A stretch of 39,071 nt of DNA from Clostridia bacterium (GTDB lineage: Bacteria; Bacillota; Clostridia; Oscillospirales; CAG-272). Of the stretch, positions 27,967 through 31,855 are shown piece after piece (within the stretch, counting starts at the first letter, position 1; each line of letters starts with the position of its first letter). The stretch covers positions 1 through 39,071 of the forward strand of contig JAFWTH010000117.1 in assembly GCA_017518975.1 (NCBI GenBank). The letters run 5' to 3'. A model generated the notes under the pieces. It searched no databases. It was not told where the DNA came from and saw nothing but the letters and a program-made list of their open reading frames with translations. The position numbers and the translations under genes were made by a program.

Positions 27967-28358
27967 AACGCTGCCCGTTCTGCGACAGAAAGAATATAAC
28001 TACCGATATCGTATACGAGGACGATCTCGCCCTTGCGTTCTACGATATAGATCCCATAAACGAAGGACACGTTCTTCTCATTCCGAAGGAGCACTTTCTT
28101 GACGCCGACGAGATGCCGGACGAGCTTATTGCCCATCTCGCCGCCGTTTCAAAAAAGATAGTCGCCGCTCTCAAGAAAACGTACCGCCCCGACGGTTATA
28201 CCGTTATGCAGAATGGCGGGAAATTCAATGACGTCGGTCACTATCACCTTCATATCTTCCCCCGTTACGAAAACGACGGCTTTGGTTGGAATTACGGACC
28301 TGATGCTCCTCTTCCGTCGAAAGAAACGGCAGATAGAATTAGAAAACTGCTCAAGTAA
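27963..28358 (+). CDS. HIT family nucleotide hydrolase/transferase
   Basis: This 131-residue protein has the histidine triad HYHLH at 93-97 followed by IFPR, and an N-terminal zinc pair CPFC (Cys4, Cys7), as in zinc-containing HIT proteins. NEGHVLLIPKEH is the usual second block. It probably hydrolyses nucleoside phosphoramidates or dinucleoside polyphosphates. The start at 27963 overlaps the Nudix stop. The TAA stop codon is the first three bases of a truncated repeat arm (28356-28373), so the repeat has landed at or supplies the gene end. Confidence 0.92.
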   Translation: MKRCPFCDRKNITTDIVYEDDLALAFYDIDPINEGHVLLIPKEHFLDADEMPDELIAHLAAVSKKIVAALKKTYRPDGYTVMQNGGKFNDVGHYHLHIFPRYENDGFGWNYGPDAPLPSKETADRIRKLLK

Positions 28359-28453
28359 GACAGGGGACGGTTCAGTAAGACAGGGGACGGTTCTGTGTCT
28401 TGCTTGTCGACGTAATCTTGCAACGTCAGGACACAGAACCGTCCCCTGTCTTA
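28356..28453. repeat. 78-bp inverted-repeat element, copy B, with partial arm duplication
   Basis: The full element is 28376-28453, with the same 24-bp perfect terminal inverted repeats as copy A. It is preceded by a truncated left arm (28356-28373, starting TAAGACAGGGGACGG) that includes the HIT stop codon. Both copies carry a truncated extra left arm in front, of different length (13 and 18 bases). Confidence 0.9.
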
Positions 28454-28773
28454 CGCCGAAAAAATCCCTGTGGGATTTTTTGCTGAGAACACTACCGGGT
28501 GAAGAAATCTTCATTTCGAGCAGGACTCGAACTCTCGTTTTGTCGCTTTGCGAGCAAAGCGGTAAAAAACCTTCGGTTTTTTCCTGCGATAGAAATGTGG
28601 AAAACGGATACTGAAGAGCGCAACGCGCCGGAAAATGCTCCTGATGAAGTCACCGCGTTTTGGACTCGAACTCCGCGTTGCGCGTTCGTCGAGCGGGTGT
28701 GTTCGACACCGCAGTGCAACGCGCCGAAAAAAGCCTGCGGCTTTTTTGCTGAGCTCGAGAGCGGAGCTCTCGG
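28454..28773 (-). other. tRNA-derived debris with stacked terminator-like hairpins
   Basis: This gene-free stretch downstream of tRNA-Trp carries GACTCGAACTC (antisense of a tRNA T arm) at 28524 and 28673, in step with the real one at 28825 (spacing 149 and 152). Perfect A/T-flanked hairpins lie at 28459-28481, 28564-28582 and 28727-28747, and further GC hairpins at 28544-28561 and 28756-28772. GCTGAG follows two of the hairpins and CAACGCGCCG occurs twice. The open frames here are not credible genes. It looks like a decayed tandem tRNA or duplicated tRNA-end region. Confidence 0.55.
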
Positions 28774-28812
28774 CCATTAAAAAAGGTCCGCTGAGCGGAC
28801 CTTTTTTAATGG
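28774..28812 (-). terminator. Terminator of tRNA-Trp overlapping its CCA end
   Basis: An 18-bp perfect stem (28774-28791 with 28795-28812, loop of 3) includes AAAAAAGGTCCGC and GCGGACCTTTTTT. The outer pairs of the stem use the encoded CCA of the tRNA, so terminator and tRNA 3' end share bases. Confidence 0.9.
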
Positions 28813-28885
28813 CAGGGGCACTAAGACTCGAACTCAGGACACGCGGTTTTGGAGACCGCTGCTCTACCAACTGAGCTATACCCCT
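28810..28885 (-). tRNA. tRNA-Trp (anticodon CCA)
   Basis: The reverse strand has acceptor AGGGGTA pairing with TGCCCCT, anticodon stem GCGGT/ACCGC around CTCCAAA (anticodon CCA, tryptophan), a GTTCGAGT T loop, discriminator G and an encoded CCA. The full cloverleaf is intact. Confidence 0.97.
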
Positions 28886-29323: not shown

Positions 29324-31855
29324 ATGAAGATCGCTTTTTCAACGCTCGGCACGCCCGACTTCACGTGGGACGAGATATGGTCGATGGCGAAGGACCTCGG
29401 CTTCGGCGGGATCGAGATGAGAGGGCTCGGAGGGACGAAGTTCTCCGCCTCGTCCGGTCCGTTCCGCGACGAGAATCTCGTCAAAACCAGGGAGACTCTC
29501 GAGAGGATGAAGCTCGAGATCAGCTGTCTGTCGTCCGGGTGCGCGCTCCGCTTCCCCGAACAGCGTGAAGAGTCGGTCTCTCTGCTCAAAAGATATATAA
29601 CGGTCGCCTCCGCGCTGGGATGCAAATTCATCAGGGTCCTCGGCGACAGGACCGCGGAGATCACTACCGATTTCGACGACGAATACGTCATCGCTCCGAT
29701 GAAAGAACTCGCTCCGATCGCCGAGGCGGCGGGAGTGACGCTCCTGATCGAGACGAACGGCGTTTATTCCCACACCGACCGTCTCGCCTCCGTCCTCGCC
29801 GCGATAGGGAGCGACGCCGTCGGCGCGCTTTGGGATATGCACCACCCGTACCGTTTCGCGGGTGAGAGCGCGGAGACGACGATCCAGAATCTCGGCGCGT
29901 TCATCAAGTACACCCACGTCAAGGACTCCGTGACGGAGAACGGCGAGGTGAAGTACCGGATGATGGGCGAGGGCGATCTGCCGATCGACGACTTCATGAG
30001 CGCGCTGCGCTCGATCAACTACGAGGGTTACGTCTCCCTCGAGTGGCTGAAGCAGTACACGCCCGATCTGTCGGACGCCGCCGTCGTCTTCCCGCATTTC
30101 GTCCACTTTATGGGCAGATATATCGAGGAAACGGTCGGAGGAGGACGCCTTCAGACCTCGATCCGCGGCGACGGCAAATATATATGGGAGAAAGAGCATC
30201 TGATCGACCTGACCTTCCCGCAGGTCCTCGACCGCGTCTGCGAGGAGTTCCCCGAGCAGTACGCCTTCAGATACACGACGCTTGACTACACGCGCACCTA
30301 TCCCGAATTCCGCGACGACGTCGACACTTTCGCCCGCGCCCTGATCTCGCTCGGCGTCAAGCAGGGCGACCACGTGGCGATATGGGCGACGAACGTGCCT
30401 CAGTGGTATATCACCTTCTGGGCGACGGTCAAGATCGGCGCTGTCCTCGTCACGGTCAACACCGCTTACAAGATCCACGAGGCGGAGTATCTGCTCCGCC
30501 AGTCGGACACGCACACGCTCGTCATGATCGACGGGTACAAGGACTCCGACTACGTCGCGATCATGAAGGAGCTCGCCCCCGAGCTTGAGACCGCTCCGGA
30601 GCATCAGCCGCTCCACCTCAAGCGTCTTCCTTTCCTGCGCAATATCATCACCTGCGAGTCGAAGCAGAAGGGATGCTACACGTGGGAAGAGGCGATGGAG
30701 CAGGCGGGCAGAACGCCGATCGAATCGGTATACCGCCGCGCGGCGATGATAAACAAGCACGACGTCTGCAATATGCAGTACACGTCCGGAACGACCGGAT
30801 TCCCAAAGGGCGTCATGCTCACCCACTACAATATCGTCAACAACGGCAAGGCGATCGGTGACTGTATGGACCTCTCGACCGCCGACAGAATGATGATCCA
30901 GGTCCCGATGTTCCACTGCTTCGGGATGGTCCTCGCGATGACCGCCTCGATGACGCACGGCACCACGATGTCGCCGATCCCTGCGTTCTCACCGAGAAAG
31001 GGGCTCGAGTGCATCAATAAAGAGAAGATCACCGCTTTTCACGGCGTGCCGACGATGTTCATAGCGATGCTCGGCCACGAGCTGTTCGAGAAAACCGATT
31101 TCTCCCATATGCGCACCGGCATCATGGCGGGCTCTCCCTGCCCGATAAAGGTCATGAAAGAGGTCGTCGAGAAGATGCACATGGACGAGATCTGCATCAC
31201 TTACGGTCAGACGGAGGCATCTCCCGCGACGACGATGTCGAAGACGACGGACTCGCTCGAAACACGCGTCAACACGGTCGGCGCGGCGATCTTCGGCGTC
31301 GAGTGCAAGATCGTCGACCCGGAGACCGGGGCGGATCTGCCAGACGGCGTCGACGGCGAATTCGTAGCCCGCGGGTACAACATTATGAAGGGCTATTACA
31401 AGATGCCCCACGCGACGGCTCTCGCGATCGACCCTGACGGATGGCTCCACACCGGAGACCTCGCCCGCCGCGACGAAAACGGTTATTACAAGATCACCGG
31501 CCGCATCAAGGATATGATAATCCGCGGCGGCGAGAACATCTACCCGAAGGAGATAGAGGATTTCATCTATACCCACCCGAAAGTGAGCGACGTTCAGGTC
31601 ATCGGCGTGCCGGACAAGGCGTACGGCGAGGAGATCATGGCGTGCGTGATTTTGAAGGAGGGAGAGGAGTGCACCGCCGACGAGATCAAGGACTACGTCC
31701 GCGATCATATGGCTAAGCACAAGACGCCGCGCTACGTCACGTTCGTCGATTCTTTCCCGATGAACGCGGCGGGGAAGATACTCAAATACAAGATGCGCGA
31801 GGAGGCGGCGAAGCTTCCCGAATTTGCGGAAGCGGCGGGTATCGTAACGGCGTAA
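29324..31855 (+). CDS. TIM-barrel (AP-endonuclease-2 fold)/acyl-CoA synthetase fusion, Leu T-box regulated
   Basis: This 843-residue protein has two domains. Residues 1-270 are a sugar phosphate isomerase/epimerase-type TIM barrel (AP_endonuc_2 superfamily) with candidate metal ligands Glu143, Asp171, His173, His198 and Glu240. Residues 290-843 are an acyl-CoA synthetase of the FadD/FACS branch: YTSGTTGFPKG (486-496), TYGQTEASP, HTGDL, GRIKDMIIRGGENIYPKE and catalytic Lys818 (AAGKILK). All catalytic elements of the ligase are intact. The joined barrel is unexpected for a ligase and its role is unknown. The true start is ATG 29324, with AAAGGAG 7 bases upstream. An in-frame ATG at 29192 lies inside the T-box. 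A Leu-responsive leader suggests isovalerate or another Leu precursor as substrate (inference). Confidence 0.88.
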   Translation: MKIAFSTLGTPDFTWDEIWSMAKDLGFGGIEMRGLGGTKFSASSGPFRDENLVKTRETLERMKLEISCLSSGCALRFPEQREESVSLLKRYITVASALGCKFIRVLGDRTAEITTDFDDEYVIAPMKELAPIAEAAGVTLLIETNGVYSHTDRLASVLAAIGSDAVGALWDMHHPYRFAGESAETTIQNLGAFIKYTHVKDSVTENGEVKYRMMGEGDLPIDDFMSALRSINYEGYVSLEWLKQYTPDLSDAAVVFPHFVHFMGRYIEETVGGGRLQTSIRGDGKYIWEKEHLIDLTFPQVLDRVCEEFPEQYAFRYTTLDYTRTYPEFRDDVDTFARALISLGVKQGDHVAIWATNVPQWYITFWATVKIGAVLVTVNTAYKIHEAEYLLRQSDTHTLVMIDGYKDSDYVAIMKELAPELETAPEHQPLHLKRLPFLRNIITCESKQKGCYTWEEAMEQAGRTPIESVYRRAAMINKHDVCNMQYTSGTTGFPKGVMLTHYNIVNNGKAIGDCMDLSTADRMMIQVPMFHCFGMVLAMTASMTHGTTMSPIPAFSPRKGLECINKEKITAFHGVPTMFIAMLGHELFEKTDFSHMRTGIMAGSPCPIKVMKEVVEKMHMDEICITYGQTEASPATTMSKTTDSLETRVNTVGAAIFGVECKIVDPETGADLPDGVDGEFVARGYNIMKGYYKMPHATALAIDPDGWLHTGDLARRDENGYYKITGRIKDMIIRGGENIYPKEIEDFIYTHPKVSDVQVIGVPDKAYGEEIMACVILKEGEECTADEIKDYVRDHMAKHKTPRYVTFVDSFPMNAAGKILKYKMREEAAKLPEFAEAAGIVTA

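Follow-up and report, generated by a model that had tools for sequence, protein, structure and literature searches.

T-arm repeats behind a tRNA-Trp gene of a Clostridia bacterium, a decayed local example from a family of cassettes that lack genes and match the T-arm

Results

Composition of the tRNA-Trp locus

The DNA analysed here, a stretch of 39,071 nt referred to as the window, carries on its minus strand an intact tRNA-Trp gene with CCA anticodon (28810..28885; ARAGORN, Rfam tRNA 63.2 bits), the putative insertion target. Its 3' end overlaps a terminator-like perfect inverted repeat (28773..28813) with 20-nt arms at 28773-28792 and 28794-28813. Further along the minus strand there follow the terminator-like A-run/T-run hairpin of a first unit (28727..28747; read from the sequence and present in the fold), a GCGTTGC/GCAACGC hairpin (28675..28724; sequence and own-genome BLAST) and, directly behind the latter, a first extra T-arm copy GGAGTTCGAGTCC (28662..28674; repeat search and alignments). 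The second unit has its own A-run/T-run hairpin (28564..28582; read from the sequence) and a second extra T-arm copy GAGTTCGAGTCC (28523..28534; repeat search and alignments). A last terminator-like A-run/T-run hairpin (28459..28481; read from the sequence, repeats D4 and D5) marks the far end of the array as the start of a cut-off third unit. The T-arm repeats and interspersed perfect A-run/T-run hairpins of the original prediction are therefore real: the 20-nt inverted repeat is accompanied by three further hairpins, and exact T-arm copies lie at 28663-28673 and 28524-28534, position 28673 being the end of a copy.

The plus-strand T-arm 11-mer GACTCGAACTC occurs exactly at 28524-28534, 28663-28673 and 28825-28835, the last inside tRNA-Trp; with the minus-strand tRNA-Trp as source, the T-arm string recurring at the other two positions reads GAGTTCGAGTC. 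Start-to-start spacings are 139 and 162 nt. About 0.02 exact matches are expected by chance in the window (2 x 39071 / 4^11), and three were observed within 312 nt. Allowing one mismatch gives 6 matches against 2.54 expected in the window, with at least 6 in 3 of 100 shuffles, so that the T-arm excess depends on the exact copies. Across the whole genome (2.51 Mb, 180 contigs), GAGTTCGARTC has six sites, three of them at the Trp array; ARAGORN detects no tRNA in the 3 kb around each of the other three. In local alignments to the array (minus strand, 28454-28772) the tRNA-Trp T-arm scored better than 500 of 500 shuffles. Neither tRNA-Trp positions 1-48 nor the acceptor 3' strand rose above chance there (63 and 460 of 500 shuffles as good, respectively), and the score of an inverted T-arm in the array was reached by 6 of 500 shuffles. 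Folding of 28454-28812 (minus strand) gave a z of -5.41 and beat 100 of 100 shuffles. A chance repeat is ruled out by the exact 11-mer excess, the genome-wide site count and the T-arm alignment against shuffles.

When the array was compared with its own genome by BLAST, a single clear match was found off the locus (contig C147, 80% over 49 nt, E 3e-5). It concerns the hairpin type of the Trp unit and sits behind tRNA-Ala-CGC, where the copies have the T-arm letters of tRNA-Ala instead of those of tRNA-Trp. Against Rfam, the window yields only two tRNAs at gathering score.

Two neighbouring features were observed in passing. A REP-like palindrome (28354-28454; 28-nt arms, GTAAGACAGGGGACGGTTCTGTG...) preceded by a 20-nt tandem repeat lies at the far end of the array, and similar sequence stands behind tRNA-Trp in a relative (G007, locus L127). 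On the plus strand, a T-box leader (RF00230, 29022-29266, 89.3 bits, slightly under the cut-off of 93) precedes an ORF (29324-31852) with a xylose-isomerase-like TIM barrel (PF01261) and an AMP-binding enzyme (PF00501, PF13193), an unusual fusion or possibly two merged genes.

The tRNA-Trp locus across the genus

In 10 of 12 genomes of the genus we found 11 Trp loci, ten with whole tRNAs and one (L135) with a 42-nt 3' piece. Extra T-arm copies occur at five of the 11, namely two in the window, three in G001, two each in G003 and G007 and one in G006; one of the G007 copies is a complete 3' end with its own terminator. A duplicated full tRNA-Trp 3' end takes the place of T-arm copies in G009, G002 and the C20 piece of G008, and neither is present in G004, G005 and G008 C61. 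The G001 array aligns to that of the window with one additional unit. A range of zero to three extra copies among the Trp loci of one genus indicates that the array is changing; in the window it is a stack in flux, of which mostly the T-arm cores are left.

Plain tandem duplication of tRNAs followed by decay, one of the origins originally proposed, would account for the repeated T-arm letters and the terminator-like hairpins of the window. A decayed array should leave remnants of whole tRNAs including their 5' parts, whereas only the T-arm rises above shuffles in the window and the 5' 48 nt of tRNA-Trp do not. Furthermore, the spacers are hairpin units of their own, modules shared behind many different tRNAs, and the intact tRNAs to be sought at this place in relatives were not seen: none of the 11 genus Trp loci has an intact second tRNA-Trp at the array position. 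We regard a dead tRNA array as hardly credible.

Cassettes behind other tRNA genes

From the window's genome 36 distinct tRNA genes were extracted, and their downstream DNA was read as far as the contigs permitted. A common cassette plan emerged: the tRNA is followed by a terminator, by R', an inverted 12-nt copy of the 3' half of the local T-arm, by a module M with the letters GGTAGTGAATGACAGCCCGGGGGGCTGTCAGAGCC...TGACCGAGCCCGCAGGCGAGA and variants thereof, and by a direct copy of the T-arm 3' half. Each cassette restores the tRNA 3' half and adds a terminator; behind it stands the next tRNA 3'-half copy, at best a complete displaced end. Units are roughly 100-250 bp long and, among those read, mostly gene-free. 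R' followed by a direct copy is present at nine of the 36 genes (Arg-ACG, Gln-CTG, Gln-TTG, Glu-CTC, Gly-CCC, Leu-GAG, Ser-GGA, Thr-GGT and Val-CAC, the Val-CAC copy having been placed by hand), and the same plan recurs at Glu, Gly, Met, Thr, Tyr and Val tRNAs of relatives. Tyr-GTA of the window's genome has R' with no direct copy within reach.

As a control we used 123 of 159 loci from the 12 genus genomes, those with a recognisable T-loop and at least 60 nt downstream. The local T54-65 12-mer was found inverted (at least 11/12, within 400 nt) downstream of 18 loci and upstream of two, with 1.35 expected from the probes of other tRNAs. The direct 12-mer is weak by itself (6 downstream, 4 upstream, 0.55 expected), and direct copies of at least 16/20 nt from C56 onwards occur downstream of 11 loci and upstream of none.

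In the Trp array, which we term class II, the GCGTTGC/GCAACGC hairpin unit occupies the place that M has in class I. The best reading of the window's array is an older, decayed class II form lacking M, in which each copy has been reduced to the T-arm. Longer displaced pieces, reaching back to the anticodon arm, are present at L117 in the window's genome and at L135 in G008. Matches to a putative class II inverted 5'-half arm were found at the 123 genus loci four times downstream and twice upstream at a threshold of at least 10/12 (1.4 expected), and at no downstream and two upstream loci at a threshold of at least 11.

Distribution and structure of module M

A covariance model of M was built and searched against 295 sampled genomes of the window's order. 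It matches 57 of them, in 31 of 149 genera, tRNA and non-tRNA forms taken together. Thirty order loci were inspected, ten chosen by the tool (L227-L236) and 20 by us, mostly 58-61-nt matches expected at tRNAs, so that the frequency of a tRNA beside M, with ARAGORN detecting a tRNA or tmRNA in 19 of the 30, is partly selected; seven of the ten tool-chosen loci have no tRNA. The R'-M-copy plan lies behind the tRNA or tmRNA at 17 of these 19 loci (L227, which is the Ser-GGA locus of the window's genome, L233, L237, L238, L240-L243, L244, L245-L250, L252 and L256). They cover the window's own family and six others, and at least ten genera belong to these six. Cassettes stand behind two tmRNA genes in related bacteria; at L244 the plan begins 335 nt behind the tmRNA. 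At Ser-GGA (L248) and Glu-CTC (L238) the units are repeated in tandem, each consisting of a tRNA 3' half with CCA, a terminator, R' and M. Two loci depart from the plan. L239 has M lacking matching arms, and at L235 M has as its neighbour the 5' end of an opposite-strand tRNA-Leu, about 21 nt of which are repeated in direct orientation behind M. M therefore does not depend strictly on T-arms.

An R'-M pattern run over 84,980 species genomes returned 64 stretches, all titled Clostridia, Clostridiales, Eubacteriales, Oscillospiraceae, Ruminococcaceae, Ruminococcus, Bacillota or Ca. Faecivivens, many with ruminant gut sample names. A tRNA lies at most 400 nt upstream on the same strand in 53 of 71 matches, and 40 of these 53 have a direct copy of at least 16/20 nt; of the other 18, some start close to a contig end and some have an unannotated tRNA 3' end. 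With one M taken per locus, modules behind two different tRNAs of one assembly are 94-100% alike in three of five cases (76% and 68% in the others), and modules at the same tRNA in different assemblies have a mean identity of 77% over 118 pairs.

BLAST with M gave 44 matches. The original prediction held that an identical arrangement at many non-tRNA loci would indicate a general repeat family. This is half the case here: M does occur away from tRNAs, inside another palindromic repeat, in 18 of the 30 own-genome M loci read; the T-arm repeats are absent from these. A general repeat unrelated to tRNAs was rejected, as M has such a form and yet possesses matched arms at tRNA and tmRNA sites. A known RNA family was likewise rejected for the array and for M: in 20 loci with arrays or M, Rfam gave no non-tRNA family at gathering score, and a near-threshold match to Gut-1 RNA (47.6 against 50 bits, L097 644-723, minus strand) lies outside the cassettes in the flank of a tRNA-Val array. 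Similar multi-hairpin repeats were noticed behind several displaced tRNA ends, e.g. L240 and L244.

In the stem of M, five of nine pairs have changed on both sides. Together with such compensatory changes in R', this would suit a conserved structured trailer RNA in which R' pairs with the tRNA and regulates its processing or readthrough. Against such an RNA stand the position of the module behind terminators, its presence or absence at the same tRNA in different species of one genus, and the dead 3' halves inside arrays; we judge it highly improbable.

Agreement between R' and the local tRNA

The arms match the local T-arm in nearly all of the cases inspected. At 16 order-level loci with the position of R' taken from M alone, 172 of 192 letters agree with the local tRNA against a permutation mean of 152.9, and none of 20,000 permutations scored as high; in this count the M model favours CGAA as the last letters and model R1 partly determines the last four letters of R'. 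The set leaves aside L227 (in the window's genome and counted before), L235, L244, the M-less Ser-TGA genes and loci lacking an ARAGORN tRNA. In the pattern set (one M per locus), where the scan pattern itself fixes part of R', the five letters beyond the pattern match the local tRNA at 3.47 of 5 positions (permutation mean 2.64, none of 2000 as high).

In integrons and CALINs, cassettes are arrayed head to tail and each unit ends in a folded inverted-repeat site. The cassettes described here share the head-to-tail arrangement and may have a folded site of this kind. Folded as single-stranded DNA, R'-M-R forms a closed hairpin in all three sequences tried (z -5.8, -3.8 and -8.0), which makes an integron-like or guide role possible. 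In such a mechanism the T-arm would be the platform, R'-M-R a single-stranded folded site like attC or R' a guide that pairs with the target, and a dedicated enzyme would move the module between tRNA genes. Covariation of R' with the tRNA and with the distal copy agrees with this: over 32 rows, 17 of which had been selected by R' match, 43 cells changed on both sides between tRNA and R' and 40 between R' and the distal copy, against 13.2 and 13.7 in shuffles. In contrast to integrons, the cassettes use a tRNA as platform, have a tRNA 3' half as payload and differ in their box letters, the T-loop GTTCGAA not fitting the GTTRRRY core. Those read are mostly devoid of genes, and an integron integrase was not found in the window's genome (best TIGR02249 match 88 bits against a cut-off of 265; at 96% completeness of the MAG this does not prove absence). 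We consider movement of this kind rather unlikely, and the same doubt applies to a dedicated integron-like system of Clostridia with tRNA and tmRNA genes as platforms, in which each cassette would bring a replacement tRNA 3' half, R'/R would be a folded attachment site or a guide selecting the target tRNA, and one enzyme would bring the same module to many tRNAs.

A recombinase-free origin may also be considered, in which DNA- or RNA-templated fold-back at the terminator hairpin makes R' and template switching adds M. At six genus loci the terminator extends into a near-complete inverted tRNA 3' half (inverted 20-mer, at least 16/20), perfect at Tyr L211, and M follows R' directly behind GAA at tRNA sites and behind GAAG at sites away from tRNAs; both agree with replicative palindrome formation. 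It leaves unexplained how a complete displaced 3' end comes to stand with its old terminator behind it, and why R' ends at T54 in so many tRNAs. Template switching accounts for the long palindromes and not for the junctions, and we find it improbable as the origin of the cassettes.

Empty and filled sites

At tRNA-Gln-TTG, the tRNA 3' end and flank of the insert-free G003 locus correspond in alignment to the distal copy at the filled locus, with identity from C56 on. The junction given by this pair, the one clean case of an empty beside a filled site, is T55|C56. At tRNA-Val-CAC of G003 the distal copy is a complete, CCA-bearing 3' end with a terminator and a gene behind it, and this distal end, terminator and next gene are common to G003 and the window's genome, in which the array is split over contigs C31 and C119 and was joined by inference. 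The distal ends at Gln-TTG and Val-CAC imply that the cassettes stand ahead of the ancestral 3' end. Alignments of empty and filled Gly-CCC sites gave no clean junction.

Search for a recombinase

No recombinase was found in the cassettes read. The window's genome has four tyrosine-recombinase matches, one Xer-like, one beside tRNA-Ser-TGA and two partial, all of them outside the window's array; Y1 was represented by two sub-threshold fragments, and a large serine recombinase was not found in this genome. Three loci with M distant from a tRNA or with no visible tRNA were read for genes. At L305 and L287 the C-terminal part of a probable large serine recombinase, recognised by eye, lies upstream of M; at L305 it stands directly before a displaced tRNA end and thus looks like part of a larger element at the same tRNA and not like the element that moves M. 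M was also present in 14 viral stretches. One of them (L323) has prophage-like genes followed by a tRNA end and then by two R'-M units, with no integrase in the part read; in the other 13, no T-arm copy was seen in the flanks examined.

Discussion

Genes for tRNAs are classic docking sites for phages and islands. The window's array belongs, as a decayed local example, to a family of T-arm-matched cassettes that lack genes and are represented in seven families of one order. These cassettes are probably gene-free integrative mini-islands that enter the T-loops of tRNA and tmRNA genes, stack in tandem and decay, the window's Trp array being their older class II form. A cassette would enter the gene at the T-loop, in clean cases between T55 and C56, and supply the local tRNA 3' half, a new terminator, R' and the structured M; as it brings the 3' half, the tRNA would remain whole, and the original 3' end with its terminator would be pushed downstream. 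Tandem arrays may arise from repeated events or from unequal exchange between units, followed by decay. The recombinase would act in trans and would most likely be a T-loop tyrosine integrase that finds its target by core identity; R'-M-R would serve it as attachment structure. Since no enzyme is linked to the cassettes, mobilisation by such a trans-acting recombinase is what we infer.

Site-specific integration at the T-loop is expected to displace the old 3' end, restore the tRNA, leave a junction at T55|C56 and let units accumulate in tandem, as observed. The scar of repeated integration proposed at the outset is largely right and the best fit, because whole 3' ends are displaced behind short inserts in related loci and the Trp copy number varies in the genus; no integrase was found in the cassettes read. 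Several observations count against an island. A tRNA-specific island does not account for a near-identical M behind different tRNAs next to an R' that follows the local one. The recombinase-free cassettes, the non-tRNA form of M, L235, L239, the weak direct 12-mer and Gly-CCC also weigh against it, as does the window itself: only T-arm cores are left there, so that its Trp units are neither dated nor delimited.

In genomic islands at tRNA and tmRNA genes (PMC4383910) the insert restores its target, a displaced 3' fragment marks the far end and tandem arrays occur. The cassettes share the restored target, the displaced 3' fragment, the use of tmRNA and many tRNA genes and the tandem arrays; a restored target with a displaced 3' fragment in the same orientation is found at class I loci, and at the window's tRNA-Trp there are T-arm cores only. 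According to the same paper, the Islander software discards candidates shorter than 2 kb and checks whether an integrase gene is present. The cassettes have neither an integrase gene nor a length of 2 kb; at about 100-250 bp and mostly with no gene, with an inverted T-arm copy and one module across isotypes, they differ from the islands described there, and this standard search at least would miss them. A likeness also exists to class II T-loop integrases of the Ms6 type, for which PMC1762012 reports that a change in the attP core redirects integration to other T-loops: attachment is at the T-loop and the target follows the core letters. As described there, Ms6 is a phage with its own integrase, whereas the cassettes have no linked enzyme of such kind.

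MITEs and REP-type repeats are short, palindromic, dispersed and multi-copy, as is M. Unlike in these, the neighbours of M at tRNA sites copy the T-arm of the target, in inverted orientation on one flank and in direct orientation on the second; in place of the fixed terminal inverted repeats and short target duplication of a MITE, the arms follow the local tRNA and not the element. The cassettes point to a kind of miniature mobile DNA of which we found no description in a literature search limited to open-licence papers. They are a natural archive of repeated insertion into tRNA genes, and they raise the question how one module gains target-matched ends. If mobile, they would offer a small T-arm-specific site that could be retargeted.

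Some inserts may carry a gene. At a tRNA-Met locus of the window's genome (L025), a partial direct copy of the 3' end (15/17 nt) was observed about 0.76 kb downstream, past a small ORF that by eye was named a predicted lipoprotein-like ORF.
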